Source: Amycolatopsis deserti
GTDB taxonomy: Bacteria > Actinomycetota > Actinomycetes > Mycobacteriales > Pseudonocardiaceae
NCBI RefSeq assembly: GCF_014653945.1
Contig: NZ_BNAU01000002.1
Span: forward strand, 429,914 to 493,913
DNA: 64,000 nucleotides
Direction: 5' to 3'
Each line of letters opens with the position of its first letter. The stretch's first letter is position 1. The position numbers and the translations under genes are program-made. This document shows positions 47,454 through 62,606 of the stretch, one piece after another. The notes under the pieces were generated by a model. The model ran no database searches. It saw only the letters and a program-made list of their open reading frames with translations, and was not told where the DNA came from.

Positions 47454-49049
47454 TCAGGCGGCGAGCGCTAGACGCGCCTCGGTCTCGCAGTCGGCCAGGG
47501 TTGCCGCGGCCAGGGCGGCGCCGACCGGCCTGATGGCCGCCGCGTTCATGGACAGGCTCGTCATCCCCAGCCCGGCCAGCACCCGGGCCAGTCGCGGGTC
47601 GGCGGCGGCCTCGCCGCAGACCCCGGCCGGCTTGCCCGCCGCCCGCGCGGCGTCGCCGACCAGGGCGATCAGCCGGAGCAGCGCGGGCTGCCACGGGTCG
47701 TTCAGCCCGGCCACCGCGCCGAGCTGGCGGTCCGCCGCGAACGTGTACTGCGCGAGATCGTTGGTGCCCACCGAGACGAAGTCGGCCACCTCCAGGATCT
47801 CCCGCGCGGCCAGCGCCGCCGCCGGGACCTCGATCATCACCCCGGCCCGCGCGATTCCCGCGGCCCGCGCCCGCACGGTGAACCACGCGGCCTCCTCCGC
47901 GGTCGCCACCATCGGCGCCATCACCGACACCTCGGCGCCCGAATCCGCCGCCGCGCCCGCGATCGCCTCGAGCTGGCGGTCCAGCACCTCGGGCCGGTCG
48001 AACGCGATCCGCACACCCCGCACGCCCAGCGCGGGGTTCGGCTCGGGTTCCGGAGCCAGGAACGCCAGCGGCTTGTCGGCCCCGGCGTCGAGCGTGCGGA
48101 CCACCACCGGCTTGCCGGCGAACGGTGCGAGCACCGCGGCGTAGGCGGCCCGCTGCTCGGCGACGGACGGCTCGGACGGCGCGTCCAGGTAGCAGAATTC
48201 GGTGCGGAACAACCCGACCCCTTCGGCACCGACTTCCGCGGCGGCGCGCGCGTCCGCGACGGAACCGACGTTGCCGAGGATCTTCACGCCGTGCCCGTCC
48301 GCGGTCGCGCCCACCCCGTTCCACTCCGCCGCCGCCCGCCGGTCCGCGGCCACCACCGGGGCACGCGGATCGGCCGGCTCGACCGTTCCGGCGTCGCCGT
48401 CGACGACGAGCGCCTCGGCGGCAAGGTCCAGCACCCCGCGCACCGCCACCACCGCCGGAATACCCAAGGCTCGCGCGAGGATCGCGGTGTGGCTGGTCGG
48501 CCCGCCCTGCTCGGTCACCAGCGCCAGCACCTGGGCCGGGTCGAGCCCGGCGGTGTCGGCCGGGGCGAGGTCACGCGCGACCAGCACGCTCGGCGACGAC
48601 AGCTCCGGCACGCCCGGCGGCTCGACACCGAGCAGCTCGGCGACGATGCGGTCCCGCACGTCCTGGATGTCGCGCACGCGCTCGGCGAGGTACCCGCCGG
48701 CTGCGGCCAGTGACCGGGCGAACCCGTCGGCGGCCTCGTACACCGCTCGCGGCGCGGGCACCCCTTCGACGGTGACCAGCCGCTCGGCCTCGCCGACCAG
48801 TCCGGGGTCGTTCGCCATCGCGGCCGTGGTGAACAGGATGTCCGCCGCTTCGCCCTGCGCCGCAGCAGCGAGCTTTTCCAGCCGCCCGGCGACGGCCGCC
48901 GCGGCGGGGGCGATCCGGGCGGCGTCGGCCGCGGGATCGGCGGGCGCCGGGGTGCGCGGGGGCTCAGCCAGCGATTCGGCGACCCGCACCACGGGACCGC
49001 TCGCGCGTCCCGGGCTCACCGCGACCCCGGACAGCCTCGTTTCCAGCAT
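47454..49049 (-). CDS. ptsI: Phosphoenolpyruvate-protein phosphotransferase, EI of the PTS
   Basis: A 531-residue Enzyme I. The phosphorylated histidine is His187 in GGPTSHTAILAR; the PEP-binding TIM barrel includes GVGLFRTEFCYL, PVVVRTLDAGADK and FVSVGTNDLAQYTF. It moves phosphate from PEP to HPr. ATG at 49049 is preferred to GTG at 49058. It is last in a regulator-HPr-EI unit, so this operon carries its own general PTS proteins beside a single transporter. Confidence 0.93.
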   Translation of the reverse strand: MLETRLSGVAVSPGRASGPVVRVAESLAEPPRTPAPADPAADAARIAPAAAAVAGRLEKLAAAAQGEAADILFTTAAMANDPGLVGEAERLVTVEGVPAPRAVYEAADGFARSLAAAGGYLAERVRDIQDVRDRIVAELLGVEPPGVPELSSPSVLVARDLAPADTAGLDPAQVLALVTEQGGPTSHTAILARALGIPAVVAVRGVLDLAAEALVVDGDAGTVEPADPRAPVVAADRRAAAEWNGVGATADGHGVKILGNVGSVADARAAAEVGAEGVGLFRTEFCYLDAPSEPSVAEQRAAYAAVLAPFAGKPVVVRTLDAGADKPLAFLAPEPEPNPALGVRGVRIAFDRPEVLDRQLEAIAGAAADSGAEVSVMAPMVATAEEAAWFTVRARAAGIARAGVMIEVPAAALAAREILEVADFVSVGTNDLAQYTFAADRQLGAVAGLNDPWQPALLRLIALVGDAARAAGKPAGVCGEAAADPRLARVLAGLGMTSLSMNAAAIRPVGAALAAATLADCETEARLALAA

Positions 49050-49061
49050 GCACAACACCTT

Positions 49062-50003
49062 TCAGTCGAGCAGGGCGCGCGCCAGCGACTGGTCGCAGAT
49101 CAGGACGTCGAGAACACCGGTCCGCAGGGCGCCCAGGGTGCCGCGCGCCTTTTCCGTTCCGGCCGCGACACCGGCCACCGTGGGGATGCCGGCCAGGTCG
49201 GCGAACGACGTGCTGATCACCCGGTCGTCCACCGGCCCGGGCACGGGCCGCCCGTCCGCGTCGAAGAACCGCGCGCAGAAGTCCCCCACCGGGTGGTGGC
49301 TTTCGAACTCGTCGCGTTCCGCCGGCGTCAGCTCCATGGCCGTGAGCAGGGCCGCCGAGGACCCCACGCCCACGCTGCCGATGCCGACCATCGCCACGTG
49401 CACCTTGCGCGCCCGGTCCAGAGCGTCCCGGATGGACGGTTCGGCGAGCAGGATGTCGCGCCCCGCCTTGGAAGTCAGCAACGCGGGCGCGTGCAGGAGC
49501 TGGAACCGGCCACCGAGCCGCGTGGCCAGGTCGCGGACCAGCTCCTCGCCGGTGATCGCCGATTCGACCGAGGACAGGCCGCCCACCAGCGGCAGCACCT
49601 CGACGTCGAGCACGCTTTCTTCGGGCACGTGCTGCACGACCGCCTGCAGGCTGCGCCCCCACGACACGCCGACCCGCTGTCCGGAGTGGAGGTTTTCCAG
49701 CAGCCAGCGCGCACCGAGCTCGCCCACGCGCGGCAGCGGCCGCTCGCCCGTGGCGTTCTCGGCCACCCGGCAGTCGCGCAACCCGAACCGGGCGGCGAGC
49801 TCACCTTCGGTGTCCAGGTCCCGTCCGGCGGGGTCGTTGATGCGGATCTGCACGATGCCGCGTTCCCTGGCCGCGGTCAGCATCCGCGACACGCTGGAGC
49901 GGCTCACCCCCAGCGTGTCGGCGATCTGGTGCTGCGAGCGGCCCTCCTCGTAGTACAGCCGCGCCGCCTTGACCAGCAGCTGCTGTTCCCGGGGCGGCGG
50001 CAT
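49062..50003 (-). CDS. SorC/DeoR-type sugar-phosphate-sensing regulator
   Basis: A 313-residue SorC-family regulator: helix-turn-helix at about residues 8-50 (KAARLYYEEGRSQHQIADTLGVSRSSVSRML), then the sugar-binding domain with VGVSWGRSLQAVV, HAPALL and GIPTVAGVAAGTEKA. Members bind a phosphorylated sugar or polyol and repress or activate the neighbouring catabolic genes. TGCAC-N4-GTGCA sites before both downstream operons are its probable operators. It overlaps the HPr gene by a TGATG. Confidence 0.88.
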   Translation of the reverse strand: MPPPREQQLLVKAARLYYEEGRSQHQIADTLGVSRSSVSRMLTAARERGIVQIRINDPAGRDLDTEGELAARFGLRDCRVAENATGERPLPRVGELGARWLLENLHSGQRVGVSWGRSLQAVVQHVPEESVLDVEVLPLVGGLSSVESAITGEELVRDLATRLGGRFQLLHAPALLTSKAGRDILLAEPSIRDALDRARKVHVAMVGIGSVGVGSSAALLTAMELTPAERDEFESHHPVGDFCARFFDADGRPVPGPVDDRVISTSFADLAGIPTVAGVAAGTEKARGTLGALRTGVLDVLICDQSLARALLD

Positions 50004-50266
50004 CAGGCGTCCGGAGTGGACACCAGCCGGGACAGTTCGGCGAGTGTCGCGTCGGCGTTGTCGCCTTCGGCGCTGATCACGACCTCCTCGCCGTGGCCGA
50101 TCGCCAGGCCCAGGACCGAAAGCATGCTGCGCGCGTCCACGGGGTCCGCGCCGGGCCGGGCGATCGAGACCGGTCCGCCGTGCCGGGCCGCGGCCTTGAC
50201 GAACTGGCTCGCGGGACGGGCGTGCAGGCCGACCGGCGAGGCGATCCGGACTGTGATCTCAGGCAT
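50003..50266 (-). CDS. ptsH: Phosphocarrier protein HPr
   Basis: An 87-residue HPr with the active-site sequence SPVGLHARPASQFV, where His15 takes phosphate from EI, and a serine region DARSMLSVLGL in the regulatory position. GAAGGAG precedes the ATG. Encoded in one unit with EI and the SorC regulator. Confidence 0.93.
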   Translation of the reverse strand: MPEITVRIASPVGLHARPASQFVKAAARHGGPVSIARPGADPVDARSMLSVLGLAIGHGEEVVISAEGDNADATLAELSRLVSTPDA

Positions 50267-50343
50267 CTCGCTCCTTCGCGTTGGGGGTTGTGACCCGCTG
50301 GACCGGCATGTTACACACATCACTGTCAAACGTGAAGAAGCTT

Positions 50344-50357
50344 TGCACCTATGTGCA
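50344..50357. promoter_or_regulatory. Candidate SorC operator TGCAC-CTAT-GTGCA
   Basis: A perfect 5+4+5 inverted repeat 38 bases before the EIIC start, in the divergent region with the HPr-SorC-EI unit. Matches 52891-52904 and 52973-52986, and all three continue with GAC. Confidence 0.72.
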
Positions 50358-50394
50358 GACGCGTTTGGTCAGGGGGCCGACAAGGAGGAAAAAC

Positions 50395-51030
50395 ATGGCG
50401 GAGCTTGCTGTAATGGCGCAGCAGGCGGACACCGGGTCCAGTTCCGGTCCCCTCGGTGTCCTCGAGTGGCTCGGCAGCCACTTCATCGGGCTGTTCAACG
50501 CCTCCGGCGAGCAGTTCGTGAGCCTGGTGACCGGCATCCTGCCCACCCTGATCGTGCTGCTGACCGCGATGTACGCGATCACCACGTTCATCGGCGAGCA
50601 GCGCGTCACCAGAGCGGTCCAGTGGTCGGCGCGGTGGTGGATCACCCGCTACACGATCATGCCGGTCCTGGCCGTGCTCATGCTGACCAACCCGATGGCC
50701 TACTCGTTCGGCCGGTTCCTGCCCGAACGGCACAAACCGGCGTTCTACGACTCCGCGGTGTCGTTCGTGCACCCGGTGACCACGTTCTTCCCGTACGCCA
50801 ACGCCGGTGAGCTGTTCGTCTGGCTGGGCGTGGCCAACGGCGTGGCCCAGCTCGGGCAGTCGACGGTGCCGCTGGCGCTGCGGTACTTCCTGGTCGGCAT
50901 CGTGGTGATCTTCATCCGTGGTGTGGTGACCGAGCGGATCACCGCGTTCATGATCAAGCGAACCGGCCGGACCGAGGTCTTCGCGGACTTCGACCGGCAG
51001 TTCGAGGCGGCCAAGGGTGGTGCGAAATGA
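50395..51030 (+). CDS. Glucitol-type PTS EIIC component
   Basis: A 211-residue membrane protein with four to five hydrophobic segments (LVTGILPTLIVLLTAMYAI, MPVLAVLMLTNPMAYSF, LRYFLVGIVVIFIRGVV). GRFLPERHKPAFYDSAVSFVHP is the hallmark of glucitol/sorbitol-family EIIC (SrlA/GutA type). AAGGAGGA precedes the ATG. It works with the EIIB-C protein encoded next, overlapped by 4 bases. The imported polyol would be phosphorylated on entry. Confidence 0.88.
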   Translation: MAELAVMAQQADTGSSSGPLGVLEWLGSHFIGLFNASGEQFVSLVTGILPTLIVLLTAMYAITTFIGEQRVTRAVQWSARWWITRYTIMPVLAVLMLTNPMAYSFGRFLPERHKPAFYDSAVSFVHPVTTFFPYANAGELFVWLGVANGVAQLGQSTVPLALRYFLVGIVVIFIRGVVTERITAFMIKRTGRTEVFADFDRQFEAAKGGAK

Positions 51031-52052
51031 CCGAAACCCACACCTCCCGCGCGGTGTTCGTCCGTCCCGGCGAGGGCGGCTGGGGCAAGGGCCTGCTGCT
51101 GCGGGTGGACGGCAAGCGGAACAAGGTCCTGTCGGTGACCGGCGGCGGTGTCCACCCGGTGGCGGCCCGGATCGCGGAGCTGACCGGCGCGGAGGCGGTC
51201 GACGGGTTCCACACCTCCGTACCCGACGACGAGGTGGTCGCCGCGGTCATCAACTGCGGTGGCACGGCGCGGATCGGGGTGTACCCGCGCAAGGGTCTGC
51301 CCACTGTGGACGTCTACCCGGGAGCCCCGGGCGGGCCGCTGGCGAAGTTCATCACCGAGGAGCTGTTCGTCTCCGCCGTCGGCGTGAAGGAAGTCGCCGA
51401 GGCGGACGGCGAGACAGGCACCGCGCCGCCGAAGGTGCCGCCGCGAGAAGAACGCCCGTCGGCGCGGGACGTCGCCGCGACGGTGACCGGCGGGCAGTCG
51501 ACCGGGTTCGGGCGGGCGTTCGACTCGGTGTCCGGCGTGTTCGTGAAGTTCGGTTCGGGCGTCGGCGCGTTCGTGAACACGATGCTGGCCTCCGGACGGC
51601 AGACGGTCGAGCTGACGCTCACCACGATCCTGCCGTTCATGGCCTACGTCAGCCTGCTGCTGGGCATCGTGAACTACACCGGCATCGCCCGCGGCATCGC
51701 GAACGTGCTGTCCCCCATCGCGAGCAACCCGCTGGGGCTGGTCGTGATCTCGCTGGTGGTGTCGCTGCCGTTCCTGTCCCCCATCCTCGGGCCGGGTGCG
51801 GCGATCGCGCAGGTGGTCGGCACGCTGATGGGCAGCCAGATCGCGATCGGCGCGCTGCCGGTGCAGTACGCGCTGCCCACGCTGTTCGCGATCAACGGGC
51901 AGGTGGGCTGCGACTTCATCCCGGTGGGCCTGGCGCTGGGCGAGGCGAAACCGGAGACCGTCGCGGTCGGCACCCCCGCGGTGCTGATCAGCCGGTTGAT
52001 CACGGCGCCGCTGGCGGTCATCATCGCCTGGGGCGCGAGCTTCGGACTGTGA
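51027..52052 (+). CDS. Glucitol-type PTS EIIB-EIIC protein
   Basis: A 341-residue protein: an N-terminal EIIB domain (about 1-130) with VINCGGTARIGVYPR, followed by a variable linker and a membrane EIIC half (LTTILPFMAYVSLLLGIVNY, LGPGAAIAQVVGTLMG, QVGCDFIPVGLALGEAKPETV). The EIIB cysteine region has one cysteine; in E. coli SrlE as I recall a second cysteine follows six residues later, here an isoleucine. Together with EIIC it transports and phosphorylates a polyol. Confidence 0.88.
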   Translation: MTETHTSRAVFVRPGEGGWGKGLLLRVDGKRNKVLSVTGGGVHPVAARIAELTGAEAVDGFHTSVPDDEVVAAVINCGGTARIGVYPRKGLPTVDVYPGAPGGPLAKFITEELFVSAVGVKEVAEADGETGTAPPKVPPREERPSARDVAATVTGGQSTGFGRAFDSVSGVFVKFGSGVGAFVNTMLASGRQTVELTLTTILPFMAYVSLLLGIVNYTGIARGIANVLSPIASNPLGLVVISLVVSLPFLSPILGPGAAIAQVVGTLMGSQIAIGALPVQYALPTLFAINGQVGCDFIPVGLALGEAKPETVAVGTPAVLISRLITAPLAVIIAWGASFGL

Positions 52053-52062
52053 GGTGTCGACG

Positions 52063-52440
52063 ATGACGGTGTACTACGAGAGCACGATCCTGCGAGCCGG
52101 CGAGGAGGCGCAGGACATGGTGGACGGCGGGGTGGTGATCCTCTACGCCGATCCGATCCCGGACGCGCTGGAAAGCGTCAGCGTCGTGCATTCCCCGGCC
52201 GCCGGGCCGGAACGGGAGGTCCGGGTCGGCGACGTCTTCCGGCTCGGTGACGCGGAGATCGAGCTGACCGCGGTCGGTGAGCGCGCCCACGAGAACCTGC
52301 GGACGCTGGGGCACATCGTGGTCTACCTCAACCCGGACGAGGGCACGACCCTGCTGCCCGGCGCGGTGCACGGCAAGGGCACGGTGTCGCTGCCCGCCGC
52401 CGGGGCGAAGCTGTCACTCAGCGGCGGGAGTCCGACGTGA
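52063..52440 (+). CDS. Glucitol-type PTS EIIA component
   Basis: A 125-residue EIIA of the glucitol family (YYESTILRAG start, TAVGERAHENLRTLGHIVVYL). His43 in SVVHSPAAG is at the position expected for the phosphorylated histidine. It takes phosphate from HPr to EIIB. ATG at 52063 has GAGGTG 6 bases upstream; a GTG 9 bases earlier is possible. It overlaps the GutM-like gene by 4 bases. Confidence 0.88.
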   Translation: MTVYYESTILRAGEEAQDMVDGGVVILYADPIPDALESVSVVHSPAAGPEREVRVGDVFRLGDAEIELTAVGERAHENLRTLGHIVVYLNPDEGTTLLPGAVHGKGTVSLPAAGAKLSLSGGSPT

Positions 52441-52826
52441 CCTGGCAGGCCGCCGCGATCCTGGTCGCCGGGTTCGCGGTGGCGGGCTTCTTCAGCTACC
52501 GCCAGCACATGCGCTACGCCCGGGTGGTCAACCAGGTCGCCGCGGAGGAGAACCGCGCCGGCGTGTTGCTGGTGACCGGGCGCGCCAAGGGCAAGCTGCG
52601 CGGCGCGGTGGTCCTGCTGGTCGTCGACCGGCGGCGGGAGGCGGTGACCAGAGCCCTGGCGATGGAGGGTGCGTCGGTCTTCGCCCGCTTCCGGGAACGC
52701 CCGGAGCTGACCGGCCCGCTCGGCACGCTCGCCGACCGGGCGCCGTCGAAGGCGGTGGCCAAGGCGGTGGCCGACGCGCGGACGATGGTGTCCCGGCTGA
52801 CCGCGGGACAACGCGCGGCAGCCTGA
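52437..52826 (+). CDS. GutM-like (glucitol operon activator family) membrane protein
   Basis: A 129-residue protein with one N-terminal membrane helix (AAAILVAGFAVAGFF) and the GutM-type YRQHMRYARVVNQ and KGKLRGAVVLLVVD segments. GutM accompanies glucitol-type PTS genes and affects their expression by an unclear mechanism. Last gene of the transporter operon, followed by a strong terminator. Confidence 0.78.
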   Translation: MTWQAAAILVAGFAVAGFFSYRQHMRYARVVNQVAAEENRAGVLLVTGRAKGKLRGAVVLLVVDRRREAVTRALAMEGASVFARFRERPELTGPLGTLADRAPSKAVAKAVADARTMVSRLTAGQRAAA

Positions 52827-52839
52827 ACAACGCAGAAAA

Positions 52840-52877
52840 AGAAAGGCCGGCTTCCCACGCGGGAAGCCGGCCTTTCT
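52840..52877 (+). terminator. Strong intrinsic terminator
   Basis: A perfect 17-base stem (52840-52856 with 52861-52877) with a 4-base loop, A-rich on one side and ending in CTTTCT, closes the PTS operon 13 bases after the GutM-like stop. It is the best terminator in the window and separates the transporter unit from the enzyme operon. Confidence 0.92.
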
Positions 52878-52890
52878 CGTGCTCTCACTG

Positions 52891-52904
52891 TGCACAAATG
52901 TGCA
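52891..52904. promoter_or_regulatory. Candidate SorC operator TGCAC-AAAT-GTGCA
   Basis: A perfect 5+4+5 inverted repeat, followed by GAC, 100 bases before the SAF-domain oxidoreductase start; the distal of two sites there. Confidence 0.7.
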
Positions 52905-52972
52905 GACAACGCGAAGGGTTGTGCTGATTATCGCCGCCGTGGTACCAAGAAATCACTGGCGTGCAAATGAAT

Positions 52973-52986
52973 TGCACATATGTGCA
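52973..52986. promoter_or_regulatory. Candidate SorC operator TGCAC-ATAT-GTGCA
   Basis: A perfect palindrome 18 bases before the oxidoreductase ATG. An extra half-site GTGCA at 52961-52965 precedes it. Its proximity to the start fits repression. Confidence 0.72.
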
Positions 52987-53004
52987 GACAGGGAAGGTGT
53001 CGCG

Positions 53005-54306
53005 ATGAGCTACGTCGATCGGTTGCGAGCCCGGGAGCGCGAACTGGGCCGGCCGGTCCGCATCGGACTGGTGGGCGCCGGCCAGATGGGGCTGGGTTTC
53101 GTCGTGCAGGCCGCCCGGATCGACGGCATGGAGGTCGCCGCGATCGCCGACATCGCCCCGGAACGCGGGGTGCACGCGTTCGACCGCGCCGGGCGCGCCG
53201 GCGCGACCACCGACGGGGACCTGGCGAGCGCGGTCGCGCAGGGACGCCCCGTCGTGGTGGACGACGCGCTGGCCCTGACCCGCCTGCCGGTCGACGTGAT
53301 CGTGGACGCCAGCGGCGTGCCCGAGGTCGGCGCCCGGGTCGCGTTCGCCGGATTGCTGGCGGGCAAGGACATCGCCCTGCTCAACGTCGAGTGCGACGTC
53401 ACCGTCGGCCTGCTGCTGGCGCGGATGGCCGCCGGTCTCGGCCGCGTCTACACCGTGTGCCGCGGCGACGAACCGGTGGAGTGCAAGGCACTCGCCGACT
53501 ACGTGCGCGACATCGGCTTCACCGTCGTCTGCGCGGGCAAGGGCAAGAACAACCCGCTCGACCCCACGGCCACGCCGGACTCGGTCGCCGCGGAGGCCGC
53601 GGCGAAGGGCATGAACCCGCACATGCTCGCCAGCTTCGTCGACGGCTCCAAGACCATGATCGAGATGGCCGCGCTCGCCAACGGCGTGGACCTCCGCGTG
53701 AGCCGCCGCGGCATGACCGGCCCCTACTCCACTGTGGACGATCTGGGGAAGATCTTCCGCCCCGCGGCCGACGGCGGGCAGCTGCCCGCGGCCGGTGTCG
53801 TGGACTACTGCACCGGTCCGGTCGCGCCGGGCGTGTTCGTGATCGGCCACAGCGACGATCCGGTGGTCATGGCGGAGATGGCCTACCTGGGCATGGGCCC
53901 CGGCCCGTACTACACGTTCTACCGGCCCTACCACCTGGCCAGCGTGGAAGCGCCGCTGTCGGTCGCCGAGGCGGTGCTCGACCGCACGGCCAGCCTGGCG
54001 CCGGTGGCGTGGAACGCGGAGGTGCTGGCCGTGGCCAAGCGGAACCTCGCGGCGGGCGAGCTGATCGACGGCATCGGCGGCGACACCGTCTACGGCATCA
54101 CCGATTCCGCGGAGGCGGCGCGAGCGGGCGGCCACGTGCCGCTCGGCCTGGCCGCCGGCGCCCGCGTGCTGCGCGACGTGCCCGCCGGAACCGTGCTGAC
54201 CACGGCGGACGTCGCCGTCGACGAGACCACCACGATCGCGTCCCTGCGGCGCCTGCAGGAGCGGCTCCTGCAGGGCGAGCCGGTGCGGGACCTGATCCCG
54301 GCCTGA
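53005..54306 (+). CDS. SAF-domain NAD(P)-oxidoreductase, DXR-like (DRL) family
   Basis: A 433-residue protein. The Rossmann start [14 protein letters not shown] is followed by a homoserine-dehydrogenase-like region ([43 protein letters not shown]) and a C-terminal SAF domain ([23 protein letters not shown]). This architecture is that of DRL, the alternative 1-deoxyxylulose-5-phosphate reductoisomerase first found in Brucella, and its relatives. Here it heads an operon with acyloin-cleaving E1/E2 and IspD homologues beside a polyol PTS, so I infer that it oxidises a polyol phosphate such as MEP to an acyloin phosphate. Other polyol phosphates cannot be excluded. Confidence 0.78.
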
Positions 54307-54319
54307 AGGGGCACCGACG

Positions 54320-55282
54320 ATGGACCTGATCGGGAACCGTGACCTCGCCCGCCGGGCGCTGGTCACCATGTGGACGATCCGGCGGTTCGAGGAAGCCGTG
54401 GACGACCTGTTCGCGCGCGGCCTGCTGCACGGCACCATGCACCTGTCGATCGGGCAGGAGGCCGTGCCGGCCGGCGCTTGCCTGGCGCTGGCCGACGGCG
54501 ACTACATCACCTCCACCCACCGCGGCCACGGCCACTGCATCGCCAAGGGCGCGCGCCTGGACGAGATGATGGCCGAACTCCTGGCGAAGGAAACCGGGTA
54601 CTGCCGCGGCCGCGGCGGCTCGATGCACATCGCCGACGTGGCGACCGGCAACCTCGGCGCGAACGGCATCGTCGCCGGCGGCGTGCCCATCGCCGCGGGT
54701 GCCGGGCTGGCGGTGAAGATGCGCGGCGGGCGGGAGGTCGTGGTCAGCTTCTTCGGCGACGGCGCGGTCAACGAGGGCGCCTGGCACGAGGGGGTCAACC
54801 TGGCCGCGATCTGGGACCTGCCGGTGGTGTTCGTGTGCGAGAACAACCACTACGGCATGTCGATGCCGGTCAGCCGGGCGTTCCGGGTCAAGCAGCTGTC
54901 CGAACGCGCCGCCGCCTACGGCATCCCCGGCGTCACGGTGGACGGCAACGACCCGCAGGCGGTGCACGACGCGGTGGCCGACGCGGTCACCCGCGCACGG
55001 GCGGGCGAGGGCCCGACGCTGGTCGAGGCCACGACCTACCGCTGGAAGGGGCATTCCAAGAGCGACAAGAACCTCTACCGCACCCGCGAAGAGATCGAGC
55101 AGTGGCGCGAACGCGACCCGATCGCGCGGTTCGAACAGCGGGTCGCGCACACGTTGGGCGAGCACGAGATCCAGGCCTGCCGGGACGAGGCGCGCGAGGC
55201 GGTGCGGGCGGCGATCCGGGCCGCCAACGCCGCACCGGACGCCTCGGCGGACTCGCTGACCGAGGCGGTGTACGCGAAATGA
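54320..55282 (+). CDS. acoA: Acetoin-dehydrogenase-like E1 alpha subunit
   Basis: A 320-residue E1 alpha with [28 protein letters not shown], the TPP motif [14 protein letters not shown]...VCENN and [14 protein letters not shown]. These are closest to acetoin dehydrogenase alpha (AcoA), not pyruvate dehydrogenase. It cleaves an acyloin, passing an acetyl unit to E2. In this operon the acyloin may be a phosphorylated 1-deoxyketose. The stop overlaps the beta-subunit start by 4 bases. The symbol marks family, not proven substrate. Confidence 0.85.
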
Positions 55283-56280
55283 CGGCAGTGACGGAGACTC
55301 GCACGCTCACCTACGCCGAGGCGGTGCGCGAAGCGCTCGCCCAGGCGATGGAAGCCGATGATCGGGTGTTCCTGCTGGGTGAGGACGTCGGCACCTACGG
55401 CGGCGCGTTCGGGGTCACCGGTGATCTCGTGCACCGCTTCGGCGAGGAGCGGATCCGGGACACGCCGATCAGCGAACTGGGCATCGTGGGCGCCGCGGTG
55501 GGGGCCGCGCTCGCCGGGATGCGGCCGATCGTGGAGATCCAGTTCTCCGACTTCACCGCGCAGGCCATGGACCAGATCGTCAACCAGGCCGCGAAGATCC
55601 ACTTCATGCTGGGCGGTGCGGCGACCGTCCCGATGGTGTTGCGGGCGCCCACCGGCTCCGGCACCGGCGCCGCGGCGCAGCACTCGCAAAGCCTGGAGGC
55701 GTGGTTCGCGCACGTGCCGGGGCTGAAGGTGGTCATGCCGGCCACCCCGGCCGACGCCAAGGCCCTGCTGCTGGCCGCCATCGACGACCCGAACCCGGTG
55801 ATCGTGCTGGAGCACAAGCTGCTCTACAAGCAGAGCGGGCCGGTGCCCGAAGCGGCCTCCCCCGCCCGGCTCGGCGAGGCCGCGGTCCGGCGGACCGGCG
55901 CCGACCTGACCATCGTGGCCACCGGCGTGATGGTGCCGCGTGCGCTGGAAGCCGCGGACGAGCTGGCCGGGAACGGCATCGAGGCGTCGGTGATCGACCC
56001 GCGCACGCTCAAACCGCTCGATGCGCGGCCGATCGTGGACGACGTGATCCGCACCGGCCGGGCGCTGCTCGTCCAGGAGGCCCCGAAGACGGCGGGGTTC
56101 ATGGCCGAGATCGCCGCGACCATCGGGGAGTCGCCCGCGTTCGGGCACCTGCGCGCGCCGATCGCCCGGCTGTGCGGGCTCGACGTGCCGATCCCCTACG
56201 CGCCGCAGCTGGAACGCGCCGCGGTGCCGCAGACCGGCGACATCGTGCGGGAGGCGACGGAACTGGTGCGGAGGTGGTGA
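55279..56280 (+). CDS. acoB: Acetoin-dehydrogenase-like E1 beta subunit
   Basis: A 333-residue transketolase-like subunit: [52 protein letters not shown] and [14 protein letters not shown], the last typical of acetoin-type E1 beta. It forms the TPP site with the alpha subunit. It overlaps the E2 gene by one base (TGATG). Confidence 0.87.
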
Positions 56281-57362
56281 TGAAGGAAGCGCCGCTGGTC
56301 ATGCCGAAGATGTCCATGACCATGACCGAGGGGACGCTCGTCACCTGGCACAAGGCCGAGGGCGACGAGGTGCGCGCCGGCGAGGTCGTGTGCGAGGTGA
56401 CCACCGACAAGGTGGACATGGAGGTCGAGGCGACCGCCGACGGCACCCTGGTGCGGATCGTCGCGCAGCCGGAGGACGTCGTCGCGGTGGGCGAACCGAT
56501 CGCCTACCTCGCCACCACGGCCGACGACCTGCTGGACGGGCTCTTCGACACGCCCGCGCCGGAGCCCGTCCCCGAGTCGGAGCCAGTGCCGGAACCGGAG
56601 CCGGAACCCGTGCCCGTGGCCGTGACGGCGGGACCGGCGCGGGTCGCCGCCGTCCCGGCCGCGCGGCGCGCCGCGGCCGAACGCGGGATCGACCTCGCCA
56701 CGATCACGCCCACGGGTCCGGCGGCCACGATCCGGCTATCCGACCTCCCGCCGCTGGAGGTCGGACCGCGGCGCGGCCCGCGCGCGGTGATCGCCCGGCG
56801 GATGTCGGCCAGCGCACAGGTCCCGCAGTTCGTGGTCTACCGCGACCTCGAGATGACCGCGACCGGGGGCGACTGGACCGTGGTGTTCGTGCGCGCTCTC
56901 GCGACGGCCTTGCGGCGCCACCCCGAGCTCAACGCCGAGTGGGCGGACGGCGACGTGCGGCGGCACGGCCACGTCGGTGTGGCGCTGGCCGTGGACACCC
57001 CGCGCGGGCTGCTCGCTCCGGTGCTGCGGGATCCGGATCTCGACGACGGCCTGGCCGGGCGTGTCCGCGACGTCGTCCGGCGCGCCCGGGCCGGGAAGCT
57101 CACGCTCGCCGAGATGTCGGGCGGCACGACCACCCTGTCCAACCTCGGCGGGTTCGGGGTCGACGCGTTCCACGCGCTGCTCAGTCCCCCGCAGGCGACG
57201 GCGCTGGCGGTCGGCCGGGTGCAGGAGAAGGTGGTTCCGGTGCCCGGCGGCATCGGGGTGGCGCTGCGGTGCACTGTCGGTCTCACCGTCGACCACCGGG
57301 TCGGCGATGGTGCGGACGCCGCCCGGCTGCTCACCTCACTGCAGGAGATCCTGTCCCTATGA
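56280..57362 (+). CDS. acoC: Lipoyl dihydrolipoamide acetyltransferase E2
   Basis: A 360-residue E2. A single lipoyl domain at about 1-80 has the modified Lys44 (VTTDKVDMEVE); a Pro/Glu-rich hinge follows at about 95-115, then a peripheral-subunit-binding region (PAARRAAAERGIDLATI), and a short catalytic domain with His339 and Asp343 (DHRVGDG). It accepts the acetyl unit from E1 and makes acetyl-CoA. The E3 subunit is not encoded here and is probably shared. Stop overlaps the IspD-like gene by ATGA. Confidence 0.88.
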   Translation: MKEAPLVMPKMSMTMTEGTLVTWHKAEGDEVRAGEVVCEVTTDKVDMEVEATADGTLVRIVAQPEDVVAVGEPIAYLATTADDLLDGLFDTPAPEPVPESEPVPEPEPEPVPVAVTAGPARVAAVPAARRAAAERGIDLATITPTGPAATIRLSDLPPLEVGPRRGPRAVIARRMSASAQVPQFVVYRDLEMTATGGDWTVVFVRALATALRRHPELNAEWADGDVRRHGHVGVALAVDTPRGLLAPVLRDPDLDDGLAGRVRDVVRRARAGKLTLAEMSGGTTTLSNLGGFGVDAFHALLSPPQATALAVGRVQEKVVPVPGGIGVALRCTVGLTVDHRVGDGADAARLLTSLQEILSL

Positions 57363-58087
57363 TCGGCGGCATGGCGCAACGTTCCCACGCGGCCGCGGTC
57401 GTGCTGGCCAGCGGTTCCGGGACCCGGGTCGGGGCCGACGTGAACAAGGTGTACCTGCCGCTGGCCGGGCGGCGGCTGGTGTCCTGGTCGCTGAGCGCCT
57501 TCGCCCAGGTTCCCGGCATCGGGGTGCTGGTCCTGGTGTCCCGGCCGCAGGACCACGACCTCGTCGAGTGGGTGCTGGAACGCGAGGTCGACGGCGCGGA
57601 CGTGGAGGTGGTGCACGGTGGCCGGAGCAGGCAGGAGTCCGAGCTGCGGGCGTTGCGGCACCTCGCGGAACGGATCGACAGCGGCGCCGTCGACACCGTG
57701 CTCCTGCACGACGGGGCCCGCCCGCTGGCCAGCCCGGAGCTGATCGCGGGAGTCCTGCAGGCGGCCCGGCGGCACGGGGGCGCGGTGCCTGGCCTCGCGG
57801 CCGACGACATCATGGCGGTCGCGGCCGACGGGCTGGAGAACCTGCCCGCCGGCACCGCGATCCGCGCCCAGACCCCGCAGGCGTTCCACGCGCGCCCGCT
57901 GCTGGACGCCTACGAAGAGGCGGCGCGGCAACGGTTCGAGGGCACCGACACCTCGTCGGTGATGGAACGCTTCTCCGATCTCCCCATCCGCTGGGTCGCG
58001 GGAGAGCAGGAGAACATCAAGGTCACCTACGCGCACGACCTGGTGATCGCCGAGCAGGTTCTGGCCTCGGCGAACTACCGGAGATGA
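57359..58087 (+). CDS. ispD: IspD-like 2-C-methyl-D-erythritol 4-phosphate cytidylyltransferase
   Basis: A 242-residue nucleotidyltransferase of the IspD/TarI group: the CTP-binding AAVVLASGSGTRVGADVNKVYLPL, then LLHDGARPLASPEL and the late AQTPQAFHARPLLDAYEEA and EQENIKVTYAHDL. IspD makes CDP-methylerythritol from MEP. Its presence in a PTS/DRL/acyloin operon is unusual and supports a methylerythritol-phosphate intermediate. A ribitol-5-phosphate transferase (TarI) is a close relative and remains possible. Starts at the E2 stop; ATG at 57371 is an alternative. Confidence 0.8.
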   Translation: MIGGMAQRSHAAAVVLASGSGTRVGADVNKVYLPLAGRRLVSWSLSAFAQVPGIGVLVLVSRPQDHDLVEWVLEREVDGADVEVVHGGRSRQESELRALRHLAERIDSGAVDTVLLHDGARPLASPELIAGVLQAARRHGGAVPGLAADDIMAVAADGLENLPAGTAIRAQTPQAFHARPLLDAYEEAARQRFEGTDTSSVMERFSDLPIRWVAGEQENIKVTYAHDLVIAEQVLASANYRR

Positions 58088-58094
58088 GGCAACG

Positions 58095-58418
58095 ATGGAC
58101 ACCGTCAGGCACGCGGAACTGACCTGCTCCCGGTGCGGCACGGACACCGTGCACGAGGTGGTGTACGCCGGCCGTCTCCTGGCGCAGGTCACCTGCACCG
58201 CCTGCGGCCGGACCTTCGGCCGCGACATCCGGGGCGAGTACCTGGCCGACCTCCGCCAGCGCCTGGCGAGCAAGCCGAAGCGCATGTTGCGCCGCCTGCG
58301 CAAGGACCCGCTGCGGTTCGCCGGCTCGCTGCCGAAGACCGTGCCGGCCAAGCCGCTGGAGCTGCTGTCGGAGATCCGGGTGGTGTGGCGGTCCGGGAAG
58401 CACCGCGGCCGGCGGTGA
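58095..58418 (+). CDS. Small zinc-ribbon hypothetical protein
   Basis: A 107-residue basic protein with two CxxC knuckles in CSRCGT and CTACGR (residues about 11-38), then a lysine/arginine-rich helix and LELLSEIRVVWRSGKHRGRR. It resembles the short, generally unassigned zinc-ribbon proteins of actinobacteria. It follows the IspD gene by 7 bases and may be co-transcribed. Function unknown. Confidence 0.75.
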   Translation: MDTVRHAELTCSRCGTDTVHEVVYAGRLLAQVTCTACGRTFGRDIRGEYLADLRQRLASKPKRMLRRLRKDPLRFAGSLPKTVPAKPLELLSEIRVVWRSGKHRGRR

Positions 58419-58496
58419 ACTCTCGAGCTGCTCGGGTTGTCTCGTTCATCGGGACACGTGCGCCGCGCGGGGCCGCCGGTGGGGCAGGATGCTCTC

Positions 58497-59291
58497 ATGT
58501 GTCCGGCACATCGGGACGAGGGCGAGATCAGCGCCCTCGGGCGGGCCGCGCTGATCCTGAAGCAGTTCCGTGGCGCGGAGCTGCCGGTGAGCGCGGCGGC
58601 GGTCGCGCGGCGGACGGGGTTGCCGCGGGCCACGGCGCACCGGCTGTTGCGGGAGCTGGCCCGGGTCGGGCTGCTCGAGCGGGCGGGCACGGCGTTCCGC
58701 CCGGGGCTGCTGCTGTTCGAGCTGGGGCAGCTGGTTCCGCAGCCCCGCAGCCTGCACGAGGCGGCCCGCAAGCACATGGCCGTCCTGCACGAAGCGACCG
58801 GGCACAACATCGGCCTGGCGGTCGAGCAGGACGGTGAGGTGGTGCACGTCGAGATCCTGCGCGGCGAGCGCGCACCCCGGCTGCCGCTGCGCACGGGCGG
58901 CCGCTGGCCGGCCCACGCGAGCTGCTCGGGCAAGGTGATGCTCGCGTTCGGGCCCGCCGACCACCTCGACCGCACGCTGGCCAAACCGCTGAAACGACTG
59001 ACCGCGCGGACGATCACCGACCCGGACGCGTTGCGGGCCGAGCTGGACCGGGTCCGCCGGGCGCGGGTGGCCTTCGACCGGCAGGAGTCGTTCCGCGACG
59101 TGACCGGGGTGGCCTCACCGGTGTTCGGCCCGGACGGCACCGTGCTGGCCGCGCTGTCGATCTCCGGTCTGGCCGGCCGCATCAACCTGTCACGGGTGGA
59201 CGCCGCGGTGCGCACCACCGCGCTGGCGATCACGCGGGAGCTCGCGATGGCCGAGTCGGTGGTGCGCCCGGTGCTGGCCCCGCGCCGCTAA
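58497..59291 (+). CDS. IclR-family transcriptional regulator
   Basis: A 264-residue IclR regulator with winged helix [40 protein letters not shown] (about residues 10-60) and effector domain [27 protein letters not shown]. It converges on the BKACE operon, overlapping its last stop by 4 bases, and may regulate it. The ATG at 58497 has no strong ribosome-binding site. Confidence 0.87.
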
Positions 59292-60019
59292 CCGCGGCCC
59301 AGGAACGGCATCGTGGTGGCGGTCAGGGTGAGGAACTGGACGTTCGCCTCCAGCGGGAGCCCGGCCATGTAGCGGACGGCGGCGGCGACGTGGGCGGCGT
59401 CGAACGTCGGTTCCGGCCGCAGTGTCCCGTCGGCCTGGCGCGTGCCGGCCGCGATGCCCGCGGTCATCTCGGTCGCCGCGTTGCCGATGTCGATCTGCCC
59501 GCAGGCGATCCCGAACGGCCTGCCGTCCAGCGACAGCGACTTGGTCAGTCCCGTCATGGCGTGTTTCGTCGCCGTGTAGGCGATGCTGCCGGGACGCGGC
59601 GAGTGGGCCGAGACGGACCCGTTGTTGATGATCCGGCCACCGCGCGGGTCCTGGCGGCGCATCACGCCGAAGGCCGCCCGCGCGCAGAGGAAGGCGCCGG
59701 TCAGGTTGATGTCCACACAGGACAGCCACTCCGCCACCGGGATCTCGTCCGGCGGGCCGGAGGGGCCGAACACCCCGGCGTTGTTGACCAGCAGGTCGAC
59801 CCGGCCCCAGGTGGCGGTGACGCGGTCGAACAGCTCGCCGACCGAGTCCGGGTCGGACACGTCGGTCGGCACGGCGAGGCCGTCCGGGGCGGTTTCCGCC
59901 AGCGGGCCGGCCCGGCGCCCGGCCAGCGCGACCCGGTAGCCGTCGGCGAGCAGGGCCCGCGCGATCACCCGCCCGAGGCCGCTGCCGGCGCCGGTGACCA
60001 CCGCGACCGGCGCGCTCAT
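59288..60019 (-). CDS. Short-chain dehydrogenase/reductase
   Basis: A 243-residue SDR with [24 protein letters not shown] (serine) and AYTATK as active site. It is the last gene of the BKACE operon, starting within the BKACE1 stop. Probably acts on a hydroxy or keto intermediate of that pathway. Substrate unknown. Confidence 0.86.
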
Positions 60020-60897
60020 GCCGCCTCCCCCAGACCGAGCAGCGCGCGGGCCTGCGCCGGGGTGGCGGGCTCGCACCCGTGGTCCCGGATGACCTCGACC
60101 ACCCGCTCGACCTGTTCCAGGTTGGTCATCGGCCTGCCGTCGGCGTCGAACGGGCTGTCCTCGATGCCGACGCGGACGTGCCCGCCGAGTTCGAGCGCGT
60201 GCACCAGGCCGGGCAGCGGGTCCGGTCCGCACACGGTGGCGGAGAAGACCGCGCCCGCGGGCAGCAGGCCGACCAGCCCGCGCAGGATCGCGGGCGTGTA
60301 CGGCAGGGCGTTCTGGAACGTCTCGTGCTGGTTGAGCACGAAGTTCACCACGTACGGCGCGCGGTCGAACTCGATCAGCGCGGGCATGTCCACCACCAGG
60401 TGCGCGGGGTTGAACACCTCCCACTCGGGTTTCACGCCCGCCTCCTGCAACGCCGCCGCCAGCCGCCGCGCGAACCAGCGCGGGGTGCTCATCAGCGTCT
60501 CGCCGTCCGGCCCGCTCACGTACGCGGTGATCGTGTCCAGCGTGCACGTGTCGGCCCCGACCCGGGCCCCGGCGAGACGCTGGTCGTGGTCGACGACGGC
60601 GCCGTACTCGGTGTCACGCACCATGTCCCCGTTGAGCCCGCCGCCGGTGGAGTTGTTGATGACGACGTCGCAGCGGTCGCGCACCAGCTCGTTGATCTCC
60701 TGGTAGACGGCGGGGTCGCAGGTGGCCGCGTCGTCGGGGCGGCGCGCGTGCAGGGCGGCGACGCTCGCGCCCGCCGCCGCGCAGCGTGCCACGTCCTCGG
60801 CGATCCGCTCGGGCTGGGTGGGCACGTGCGGGTGCTGCGCGGGGGTCAGCATCCCGCCGGTCGGCGCGACGGTGACGATCACCGGACGCCCGGTCAC
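60016..60897 (-). CDS. BKACE (beta-keto acid cleavage enzyme)-family protein, copy 1
   Basis: A 293-residue TIM-barrel protein ([59 protein letters not shown]). Family members bind zinc by an HxH pair and a glutamate and cleave beta-keto acids with acetyl-CoA. Here the first histidine of HxH is alanine (ALHAR), while the glutamate in GIED is kept. The activity may be lost or changed, or shared with copy 2. The GTG start is in a GTGA overlap with the preceding gene. Confidence 0.82.
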
Positions 60898-61298
60898 GCC
60901 GCCACCTCCTCGAGCAGGCGGGTGATCGCGCTCCGCAGCGGGTCCCCCACCCGCAGCCCGGCCCGGAGCCCGGCTTCGTTGACGTGCGTCAGCACGCCGT
61001 TGTCCCACATGTCGCGGCCGTCGCTGATGCGCGCGGTCAGGTGGCCGACCGTCGCGCCCGGCACGCCCGCCTCGTCCATGACCGCCAGGCCCGCGATGCC
61101 GGCGTCGTCCTTGCCGCGTCCGGCGTCGTTGAACACCGCGCACGCGCACCCGCTCAGCACGGCGATCCGCCCCGACTCCACGCCGCCGTTGGACGCGGCG
61201 ACGATGATCTGGCCGCGGTCGGCGTGCTCGGCCTGGGACATGCTGTCCAGCAGCACCACCCGCCGCCCGCCCCGCTCGGCGACCGTCGTCCTCAGCAC
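60894..61298 (-). CDS. Uncharacterised protein, tandem paralogue 1
   Basis: A 134-residue protein I cannot name. It shares with the following paralogue the pattern VLLDS...IIVAASNGGVESG...AVFNDAGRGKDDAGIAGLAVMDEAGVPGATVGH, a TARI-SDG-D-W-NG stretch and a late VNEAG. Similar frames occur near BKACE and other CoA-linked genes in my recollection, but I do not know a function. It overlaps the second paralogue by 7 bases and BKACE1 by 4. Confidence 0.72.
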   Translation of the reverse strand: MLRTTVAERGGRRVVLLDSMSQAEHADRGQIIVAASNGGVESGRIAVLSGCACAVFNDAGRGKDDAGIAGLAVMDEAGVPGATVGHLTARISDGRDMWDNGVLTHVNEAGLRAGLRVGDPLRSAITRLLEEVAA

Positions 61299-61717
61299 GG
61301 CACACCCCTCGCCGCGAGCCTGGTGAACGCCGCCGACAGCGGTTCGCCGACCCGGATCCCGGCGGCCAGGGCGGTCGCGTTGGCGTAGCTGACGATCCCG
61401 TTCGCCCAGGTGTCGTGCCCGTCGCCGATCCGGGCGGTGTCGTGGCCGACGGCGACGCCGACGACGCCGTCCAGCGCCGCCAGGCCCGCCACCCCGGCCC
61501 CGTCCTTGCCGATCCCGGCGTCGTTGCAGGCCACGGCGGCGACCCCGCACCGGCGGGCGTACTCGCCCGCGCTGGTTCCGCCGTGGGATCCGGTCACGAT
61601 CGCCTGCCCGGCGTGCTCGCCGGTGGCGAAGGCGATGGAGTCCATCACCGCCACCGACAGCCCGCCGAGGCGCAGGACCGTGCGGACCGGTCCACTGTGG
61701 TCATCGACCACCCGCAT
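61292..61717 (-). CDS. Uncharacterised protein, tandem paralogue 2
   Basis: A 141-residue paralogue of 60894-61298: VTGSHGGTSAG in place of VAASNGGVESG, CNDAGIGKDGAGVAGLA, VGHDTARIGDGHDTWANG, and YANATALAAGIRVGEPLSAAF near the end. The ATG has GGAGGTCGC-type purines after it and its 5' end overlaps BKACE2 by 17 bases. The fold and function are unknown; the invariant small-residue and Asp motifs suggest a ligand or nucleotide site. Likely a heteromer with its neighbour (inference). Confidence 0.72.
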   Translation of the reverse strand: MRVVDDHSGPVRTVLRLGGLSVAVMDSIAFATGEHAGQAIVTGSHGGTSAGEYARRCGVAAVACNDAGIGKDGAGVAGLAALDGVVGVAVGHDTARIGDGHDTWANGIVSYANATALAAGIRVGEPLSAAFTRLAARGVPC

Positions 61718-62606
61718 GGAGGTCGCTCCTTTCCGGTTGTGTGACGCCGAGGATGCGCCGCGCGTCGTCGGGGGTCGCGATGGGCCGTCCCGCCCGCCGG
61801 GCGACCGCGGCGACGTGCTCGACGAGTTCGGCGTTGGTGGGACAGCCGCGTGCGGTGTGCGGGTGGTCGCCGACGCCGACGGTGATGTGCCCACCCAGGC
61901 GCACGATCTCCTCGGCCAGTTCGAGGATGTCGGCGCGGTGCGCGGACACGATCCAGGCCAGGCCGTCGTGCCGCGGCAGGAAGTCCAGGTGCGCGCGCAG
62001 GCCGGCGACCGTCGCGGGATGGGCGGCGAGGAACTCGGGCCCGCCGAGCACGAACTGCACCACCGCCGGCCCGGGCACCTCCCCGGCGGCCAGGTGCGCG
62101 GCGATCGTCCTGGTCCAGCCGACGGTGAACGACGCCAGCCACGGCGTCAGGCCGTGCCGGCGGGCGCAGGCGAACAACGCCCGGTGCGTCGCGGTGTCGT
62201 TGACGAACACCTTGTCGTCCGTGCGGAACCGCGCCCGCGCCGGATCCCACAGGTCCATGATCGCGCAGCCCATGTCGATGGTCAGGAAGTCCGGGCGCGC
62301 GTCCCCGGCCGTCTCGGTGACCGGCGCGAGCCTGCGCTCCAGCGGGAAGCCCGGGCCGTTGGCCAGCGACGGGGCGAGCAGGACGTCGCACCGCTGCCGG
62401 ATCAGGCGGGAGGTCTCGGCGTAGCGCTCGGGGCTGTGGTCGGGTGCCCCGTCGTCGGTCCGGGCGTGGTAGTGCACCGCCGTCGCCCCGGCGGCCGCGC
62501 AGGCCGCGACGTCCGCGGCGATCTCGCCGGGTGTCCACGGGACGTGCGGGTTGTCCTCGCGCATCATGTTCTCGTTCGGGTTGACCCCGATCACCAGCGG
62601 TGTCAT
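61701..62606 (-). CDS. BKACE (beta-keto acid cleavage enzyme)-family protein, copy 2
   Basis: A 301-residue TIM-barrel protein (NPHVPWTPGEIAADVAACAAAGAT, HYHAR, DFLTIDMGCAIMDLW, TNAELVEHVAAVARRAGR, ATPDDARRILGV). It keeps the HxH zinc pair (HYH) but the usual glutamate at the end of the late strand is glycine (VGVGDHPH where GLED is expected). Copies 1 and 2 therefore lack different metal ligands. It overlaps the SDR gene by 4 bases. Product specificity unknown. Confidence 0.82.
   Translation of the reverse strand: MTPLVIGVNPNENMMREDNPHVPWTPGEIAADVAACAAAGATAVHYHARTDDGAPDHSPERYAETSRLIRQRCDVLLAPSLANGPGFPLERRLAPVTETAGDARPDFLTIDMGCAIMDLWDPARARFRTDDKVFVNDTATHRALFACARRHGLTPWLASFTVGWTRTIAAHLAAGEVPGPAVVQFVLGGPEFLAAHPATVAGLRAHLDFLPRHDGLAWIVSAHRADILELAEEIVRLGGHITVGVGDHPHTARGCPTNAELVEHVAAVARRAGRPIATPDDARRILGVTQPERSDLHAGGR

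Follow-up and report, generated by a model that had tools for sequence, protein, structure and literature searches.

Gene content and operators of the cluster

The 64,000-nucleotide stretch of DNA analysed here (as a whole, the window) lies in the 7.74-Mb genome of Amycolatopsis deserti and holds a gene cluster that brings together a glucitol-type phosphotransferase system (PTS), a predicted DXR-like (DRL) oxidoreductase of the DXR-II type, the thiamine diphosphate (ThDP)-dependent E1 and lipoyl E2 components of an acyl-forming complex, and a homologue of IspD, the cytidylyltransferase of 2-C-methyl-D-erythritol 4-phosphate (MEP). The nearest named relatives of the DRL gene are those of Amycolatopsis. 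The following features make up the locus, which we discuss as a candidate system for the catabolism of a methyl-branched polyol.

47454..49058, minus strand: PTS enzyme I (PtsI), a dedicated copy; Pfam PEP-utilizers N, mobile and C domains
49062..50003, minus strand: sugar-binding regulator of the SorC/DeoR type, presumably acting at the operators; Pfam Sugar-bind, E 5.5e-61
50003..50266, minus strand: HPr; Pfam PTS-HPr, E 2.8e-23
50343..50360, plus strand: operator copy 1, upstream of the PTS operon (before srlA); motif scan of window and genome
50395..51030, plus strand: glucitol-type PTS IIC (SrlA); Pfam EII-GUT, NCBIfam NF049923 above cut-off
51027..52052, plus strand: glucitol-type PTS IIBC (SrlE); Pfam, NCBIfam NF049924 above cut-off, TIGR00825 below its cut-off
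52063..52440, plus strand: glucitol-type PTS IIA (SrlB); Pfam PTSIIA_gutA, E 5.2e-22
52437..52826, plus strand: GutM-like protein; Pfam GutM, E 9.4e-13
52840..52877, unstranded: 17-bp perfect inverted repeat (hairpin) separating the PTS and DRL operons, possibly a terminator; inverted-repeat scan
52890..52907, plus strand: operator copy 2, before DRL; motif scan of window and genome
52972..52989, plus strand: operator copy 3, just upstream of DRL; motif scan of window and genome
53005..54306, plus strand: DXR-II (DRL) oxidoreductase with SAF domain, proposed to oxidise MEP to 1-deoxy-D-xylulose 5-phosphate (DXP); Pfam DRL_cat, PDB match, residues, tree
54320..55282, plus strand: ThDP-dependent E1 alpha of a DRL-linked clade, proposed to cleave DXP; Pfam E1_dh 6.6e-88, GDG...N ThDP motif, tree
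55279..56280, plus strand: E1 beta of a DRL-linked clade; Pfam Transket_pyr and Transketolase_C, tree
56280..57362, plus strand: E2 with lipoyl, E3-binding and acyltransferase domains; Pfam, lipoyl Lys and DHRxxDG motif present
57359..58087, plus strand: IspD (MEP cytidylyltransferase) of a DRL-linked clade, catalytic residues intact; Pfam IspD 4.6e-43, tree, residues
58095..58418, plus strand: small zinc-ribbon protein of 107 aa, conserved in DRL clusters; homologue search, without Pfam match
58437-59291: IclR regulator, next after the zinc-ribbon gene

The genes for DRL, E1 alpha, E1 beta, E2, IspD and the zinc-ribbon protein (53005-58418) overlap or are separated by gaps within 14 bases. 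The 18-bp operator KTGCACNWATGTGCAGAC occurs once before srlA (50343) and twice before DRL (52890 and 52972), with no further sites in the window at up to 2 mismatches. Across the whole 7.74-Mb genome, TGCACNNATGTGCAGAC at up to 1 mismatch has 3 sites, all at this locus, and its reversed-motif control has 0 matches; thus, the PTS and DRL operons look like one dedicated regulon here. A similar site (up to 3 mismatches) is present in 16 of the 21 relatives scanned, mostly just upstream of srlA or DRL, and was not found in L063, L066, L073, L075 and L080. These results bear out an operator common to both operons, as claimed in a preliminary description of this DNA, and a complete glucitol-type PTS, with IIC, IIBC, IIA and GutM all present. 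The unit that it outlined keeps all its named genes, but its true start lies further upstream, with enzyme I, the SorC regulator and HPr on the minus strand, and its downstream end is extended by the conserved zinc-ribbon gene.

The hairpin was not picked up as a terminator by a T-run scan, and a scan of 50200-58500, of a type ill suited to actinobacteria, found no sigma-70-type promoter site; an essential IspD inside an inducible operon would need an internal promoter or basal expression. In its IIC, IIBC, IIA and GutM genes, the cluster resembles a glucitol/sorbitol PTS operon (srlAEB, gutM). Unlike such an operon, it has its own enzyme I, HPr and SorC regulator, and DRL is its only polyol-phosphate-type oxidoreductase. 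Sorbitol-6-phosphate dehydrogenase is not among the genes identified at 47454 to 59291 and DRL stands in its place, so a simple sorbitol operon was rejected.

Oxidoreductase, E1/E2 complex and IspD

By its domains, residues and tree position, the window oxidoreductase is classified as DXR-II (DRL), not DLO. It matches Pfam DRL_cat (E 1.3e-62), carries a SAF domain in addition, and aligns over query residues 9-422 with PDB 3UPY/3UPL (E about 1e-93), of which 3UPY is the Brucella DXR-II (PMC3847144). That paper distinguishes DXR-II from the related DLO1 and DLO2 families and draws attention to Thr229 and Arg320, with Lys191 and Lys193 also anchoring fosmidomycin. All four of these substrate and dimer residues (K191, K193, T229 and R320 in the numbering of PMC3847144) are present in the window DRL and are kept in 69/69 actinobacterial rows, 20/20 rows of a clostridial sample, 11/11 plasmid rows and 7/7 Actinomarina rows, the first tally covering L051-L120, that is, named actinobacterial contigs and two other phyla, with L116 omitted as too short. 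Among 12 DLO-like rows, T229 is found in none, and R320 and K191 in 2 each. In a DRL tree of 76 rows (quick method), the window sequence belongs to an actinobacterial clade (support 99) whose sister group (83) is alphaproteobacterial and includes NGR234; PMC3847144 lists a DXR-II for this strain, and the NGR234 plasmid match is here taken to be that gene. Firmicutes rows, including Listeria, come next out, and DLO-like rows lie on long branches. The earlier assignment to a SAF-domain DRL family therefore holds by Pfam, PDB match, residues and tree, and the phylogeny places the enzyme among the DXR-IIs and not outside DRL.

The E1 beta subunit scores above the NCBIfam subfamily cut-off for pyruvate dehydrogenase (PDH) E1 beta (364.4 over 321) and E1 alpha below the PDH equivalog cut-off (353.3 under 393.85). 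A tree built on concatenated E1 alpha and beta sequences (55 rows, quick method) puts all 43 chosen DRL-linked pairs into one clade (SH-like approximate likelihood ratio test, SH-aLRT, 95), and four acetoin-type references with one paralogue into another (98); one of the references adjoins acetoin reductase and butanediol dehydrogenase genes. Given that the linked pairs have a clade of their own, apart from the acetoin-type enzymes, the DRL-linked E1 seems to be a dedicated enzyme rather than a borrowed acetoin dehydrogenase, and an ordinary acetoin dehydrogenase was rejected as an explanation of E1/E2. Of the acetoin-dehydrogenase-like E1/E2 described earlier, the parts list stands (E1 alpha, E1 beta and lipoyl E2), and the placement does not. 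With the AcoABC complex the cluster shares ThDP E1 alpha/beta and lipoyl E2, and it would likewise split a methyl acyloin into acetyl-CoA and an aldehyde; unlike AcoABC, it groups outside the four acetoin-type reference operons, and neither acetoin nor butanediol dehydrogenase is among the window cluster genes.

One row inside the DRL-linked E1 clade is unlinked, namely a C. difficile plasmid operon (L226; SorC, E1 alpha, E1 beta, E2, lpdA and PTS genes) in which DRL was not found within the 15 kb seen; this operon may use a deoxyketose directly. In an Actinomarina cluster, E2 is a 90-aa free lipoyl domain (L090:13207-13479). In the window genome, E3 is presumably one that also serves other complexes; in some other bacteria the cluster itself encodes it, and lpdA or lipA is present in some clusters there. 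As for the chemistry, purified PDH makes 1-deoxy-D-xylulose from pyruvate and D-glyceraldehyde, and aceE mutants supply DXP, according to PMC3424233; a 1986 paper cited there has acetoin dehydrogenase, too, in its title. On these PDH and aceE precedents, the enzyme class handles the C2-C3 bond in question.

The identification of an IspD homologue is likewise borne out, by the Pfam match and by intact catalytic residues: the cluster protein keeps Arg20, Lys27 and Lys213, whose numbering and catalytic roles we take to be those of E. coli IspD. It scores below the TIGR00453 cut-off (165.8 under 181.3) and, in the IspD tree, falls within a DRL-linked clade (99) apart from housekeeping IspD (row L246 of this tree is the Nonomuraea cluster copy, identical to L069). 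The other IspD of the window genome lies at ispD-ispF-cysS (L296:2806-3486; window genome C4, about 400305-400985) and has lost the nucleotide-binding loop (GxGxR) together with both catalytic lysines, that of the loop and that of NIKVT. Thus, unlike a housekeeping IspD, the cluster copy sits in a putative catabolic operon, and it is the ispD-ispF-cysS copy that has decayed.

This pattern recurs among the two-copy genomes read (n = 10, by IspD-family matches of more than 85 bits; G435, where the two matches are pieces of a single gene, does not count), 9 of which have exactly one intact IspD. In the window genome and G404-G409 (7/7), the cluster IspD is intact and the other copy is without Arg20 and Lys27, although the start of the second copy in G409 is missing from the frame read. 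Nonomuraea G411 is reversed, with a decayed cluster IspD and an intact other copy, and G416 has an intact cluster-type IspD (55% identical to cluster IspDs, outside locus L080) and a decayed housekeeping-like copy. In the tenth genome, G417, the signature is present both in an IspDF and in a second homologue. That either copy can be the one lost points to interchangeable copies, and hence to MEP as a substrate of the cluster IspD. In the seven Pseudonocardiaceae genomes read, the only residue-intact IspD lies inside this operon, and the same genomes have dxs, dxr and ispG; HMG-CoA (3-hydroxy-3-methylglutaryl-CoA) reductase was not found in four of them (G405, G406, G408 and G409), which should thus depend on the MEP pathway and the cluster IspD. 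Where no IspD is seen in the cluster locus, an intact copy is present in the genome (seven cases: G401, G410, G413, G417, G426, G432 and G433). The cluster IspD is therefore probably the working MEP cytidylyltransferase of the cell, as judged from these residue patterns.

Two further arrangements of IspD were seen. In freshwater actinobacteria, a degenerate IspD-like open reading frame (ORF) without the catalytic loop lies near DRL-IspD (L097:12588-13241, minus strand); of the weaker second IspD matches in freshwater genomes this one was read, and it is decayed. In Salinibacterium-like actinobacteria, an IspD-IspF fusion gene adjoins the cluster (L073:5836-7041), a second way for IspD and the cluster to be neighbours.

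Spread of the cluster and of isoprenoid genes

Neighbourhoods of DRL loci were read by tblastn, and E1 alpha/beta pairs were counted within 10 kb. In an order sample, 39 of 397 genomes have a DRL match at E 1e-60 or better, and loci with a DRL at least 54% identical were classed as cluster-type. Among the 18 such loci outside the window, all 18 have a glucitol PTS and 15 an E1 pair, and of the remaining three, one lies at a contig edge with pieces of E1, one is on a short contig, and one has E1 beta about 10 kb off; at the DLO-like places of this sample, both are absent (0/19 each; 19 fetched of 23). The clostridial sample, drawn from the phylum of a Lachnospiraceae genome, has a match in 38 of 398 genomes, and 39 of 42 places were fetched. 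Its 34 DXR-II-type loci include an E1 pair in 16 cases, a glucitol PTS in 23, a fructose-6-phosphate-aldolase-type gene in 11 and a nearby SorC-type gene in 23, and none of its 5 DLO-type loci has an E1 pair or glucitol PTS. Among plasmids, 88 records have a match; of 11 DXR-II-type loci, 7 carry the E1 pair, 5 the PTS and 9 a nearby SorC-type gene, with E1 pair and PTS both absent from the DLO-type loci (n = 3). The 80 named contigs, chosen by similarity and hence biased, have the E1 pair in 60 cases, the PTS in 61 and IspD in 56. Fructose-6-phosphate-aldolase-type genes lie at the DRL loci L194, L184, L176, L180, L294 and L295, the first two with transketolase-type genes too, and several DRL matches of the clostridial sample (L177 and others) hold one in-frame stop (TAG, TAA or TGA).

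The combination of DRL and E1/E2 is found again in Actinomycetota, Alphaproteobacteria, Clostridia, Bacilli and Aerophobetes, with examples in Streptomyces, Pseudonocardia, Cryobacterium, Actinomarina and Aerophobetes (DRL-E1a-E1b). The company it keeps varies: Terrirubrum and Pseudoroseomonas have clusters with PTS; Aminobacter has DRL-E1a-E1b-E2; the Rhizobium and S. meliloti clusters have an ATP-binding cassette (ABC) transporter, a sugar kinase and lpdA, and that of S. meliloti also lipA; the Priestia cluster has a major facilitator superfamily (MFS) transporter, an FGGY kinase and lpdA; Phyllobacterium has DRL and ABC genes only; and Listeria and Ligilactobacillus have DRL and a glucitol PTS without E1. 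Given that the transporter type varies and DRL-E1-E2 is constant, this module is the putative core, with DRL acting on a polyol phosphate. The genome-neighbourhood survey proposed in the preliminary description thus links DRL, E1/E2 and a transporter over several phyla. An all-against-all ORF comparison around 88 loci, with families judged from short printed translations, ranked the genes of the cluster itself at the top; no further recognisable enzyme family occurs in more than 16 of the 88 loci, and several small or antisense-looking families were not identified. Some clusters have a second, galactitol-type PTS beside them.

We searched for dxr, dxs and IspD in 51 genomes (the 50 behind the named loci and the window genome), and for ispG and HMG-CoA reductase in those 51 and ten more clostridial-sample genomes. 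A dxr gene was found in 20 of the 51. The window genome has canonical dxr, dxs and ispG, and also HMG-CoA reductase, so DRL is not needed there for synthesis. Seven genomes have DRL and IspD without PTS or E1 in the locus (L093, L096, L100, L102, L114, L115 and L121); all seven have dxs and ispG, none has a dxr match, and their only strong IspD match is the DRL-adjacent one (by coordinates; two pieces in L114), although, these being metagenome assemblies, single absences could be gaps. Cluster-type DRL should therefore be their DXR, and their rows fall among full-cluster rows in both the DRL and the IspD tree. Sediminivirga luteola (L075) and Terrimesophilobacter mesophilus (L079) gave no dxr, IspD or ispG match and, for dxs, weak matches at most; both have HMG-CoA reductase and keep PTS-DRL-E1-E2 without IspD. 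In these mevalonate-only genomes, the known pathway leaves DRL no part in isoprenoid synthesis. Nine Candidatus Actinomarina genomes (L090, L094, L119, L123, L124 and L126-L129) have DRL and IspD, with dxr not found; for DXS they give at most weak matches to the C-terminal half of the model (none in one genome), and ispG is present in 8 of the 9.

The zinc-ribbon protein at the end of the operon has no Pfam match. Its homologues were found in 40 of 109 DRL loci searched, in Actinomycetota and the clostridial sample, and C11, C14, H20, C34 and C37 are invariant across 32 aligned sequences. A fold search with its predicted model (predicted local distance difference test score, pLDDT, 73.7) gave nothing significant (0 matches at E 0.001); ZifS, a small zinc-finger protein, is among the weak matches. 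Beyond the IclR gene, a further gene set on the minus strand (59288-63903) seems to be a separate cluster; judged from their translations, these are presumably genes for short-chain dehydrogenases and other catabolic enzymes.

A proposed catabolism of methyl-branched tetritols

Collectively, the gene identities, operators, linkage, phylogeny, catalytic residues and presence or absence across genomes, all of which are read from sequence, make it likely that the cluster serves the catabolism of a methyl-branched tetritol, with 2-C-methyl-D-erythritol as the likeliest candidate, where we infer the substrate, the direction and the cleavage of DXP. The glucitol-type PTS would import and phosphorylate the polyol to MEP, which DRL would oxidise to DXP; the dedicated ThDP/lipoyl E1/E2 would then cleave this methyl-ketone acyloin to acetyl-CoA and glyceraldehyde 3-phosphate, and IspD would divert a share of MEP to isoprenoid synthesis. 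The SorC-type regulator, whose binding and ligand we likewise infer, would control both operons through the three operators. The node of the pathway is probably MEP, because DRL is the only DXR found in seven genomes, because clusters occur in mevalonate-only genomes, and because one IspD stays intact in the two-copy genomes. On the whole, independent comparative genome tests support the interpretation put forward in the preliminary description. We know of no entry of DXP, unlike xylulose 5-phosphate, into the pentose phosphate pathway, which would account for the coupling of an acyloin-cleaving complex to this reductoisomerase. Xylulose 5-phosphate itself as the product, from an apiitol-type substrate, is disfavoured by reasoning only, as E1/E2 would be superfluous.

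Several observations weigh against this interpretation. DXR is known in the direction of MEP, and 31 of the 51 genomes, many with a full cluster, have no dxr match, so that DRL may serve synthesis there too. Seven full-cluster-type loci of the same order (L040-L046; DRL 57-64% identical; left out of the residue tally above) have Ala at T229, and His250 is Thr in the window DRL and variable in actinobacteria; substrate specificity may thus differ. In the DRL tree, the branch uniting all DXR-II is weakly supported (49), and the linked E1 is, by phylogeny, not an acetoin dehydrogenase. Of the 34 clostridial DXR-II-type loci, 18 have no E1 pair detected within 10 kb (some contigs being short), and some carry fructose-6-phosphate-aldolase-type and transketolase-type genes instead of E1; as a guess, such loci may split DXP another way. 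IspD was seen in only 1 of the 34 DXR-II-type loci of the clostridial sample and in none of the 11 on plasmids, a rarity which argues that it is not a catabolic step. Finally, the intact IspD of Nonomuraea G411 is divergent (identity of about 35% with cluster IspD and 33% with housekeeping IspD), which, like the full clusters in genomes without dxr, slightly lowers our confidence.

Part of this evidence would fit the same module acting on another methyl-branched tetritol phosphate, e.g., a 2-C-methylthreitol stereoisomer, and delivering another 1-deoxyketose phosphate to E1/E2. The T229A change in seven full-cluster-type DRLs, the variable His250 and the galactitol-type second PTS all point that way; nevertheless, we regard this alternative as unlikely, given the reciprocal loss of IspD and the seven genomes with dxs and ispG in which a same-clade DRL and IspD are the sole DXR and the sole strong IspD match found, so that MEP/DXP should be a substrate pair of the clade. 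Still more doubtful is a valve for MEP homeostasis or salvage, in which SorC would sense MEP, made or salvaged, and induce both its drain through DRL-E1-E2 and its use by IspD. The sole intact IspD sitting in the operon of seven Pseudonocardiaceae genomes with dxs, dxr and ispG agrees with such a valve, but a PTS, or an ABC or MFS transporter with a kinase, belongs to the regulon or locus, and the cluster is kept in two genomes without the MEP pathway. Already disfavoured, and very improbable, is a chance position of DRL and IspD, as ordinary isoprenoid genes, beside a sorbitol PTS and a pyruvate/acetoin dehydrogenase: DXR-II is known as a biosynthetic enzyme (PMC3847144), and both the genomes with DRL and IspD away from PTS and E1 and the many without a dxr match are in keeping with it, but the linkage over several phyla, the one operator set and the canonical dxr of the window genome, the clusters in mevalonate-only genomes and the lack of sorbitol-6-phosphate dehydrogenase among the window cluster genes are not.

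The enzyme families of the proposed methylerythritol catabolism are known; their assembly, its spread and the exchange of IspD appear new. A literature search (titles and abstract openings of CC-licensed PMC papers, among the matches listed) found no methylerythritol or MEP catabolism, which is weak evidence of absence; a paper on cloud water names 2-methyltetrols in its references only. The window DRL is of one family with the DXR-II of the MEP pathway (Brucella DRL, 3UPY); it differs from the latter in its linkage to genes for a sugar-alcohol transporter and an acyl-forming E1/E2 and in its proposed oxidative direction, and cluster DRLs occur beside canonical dxr as well as in genomes without the MEP pathway. 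We offer tentatively, as a scenario that may well not hold, that a reversed DXS-DXR route is a widespread and old catabolism and the original role of DXR-II, with its biosynthetic use recruited later; in Pseudonocardiaceae, the only working IspD would then lie in the catabolic operon, the ancestral IspD beside ispF having decayed to a pseudoenzyme, and a SorC-controlled MEP node would join polyol use to isoprenoid synthesis.

2-C-methyl-D-erythritol is made by plants, and 2-methyltetrols form from isoprene in air; the proposed pathway would provide a bacterial sink for the former and perhaps for related 2-methyltetrols. It would also address, in a way open to testing, the question in PMC3847144 of why some bacteria keep DXR-II beside DXR-I, or without other MEP-pathway genes, and would explain the second, seemingly redundant isoprenoid enzyme of many bacteria. 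Finally, the distribution of intact IspD suggests that an essential isoprenoid enzyme has moved into a catabolic operon, and that gene presence alone can mislead in the reading of genomes with the MEP pathway.

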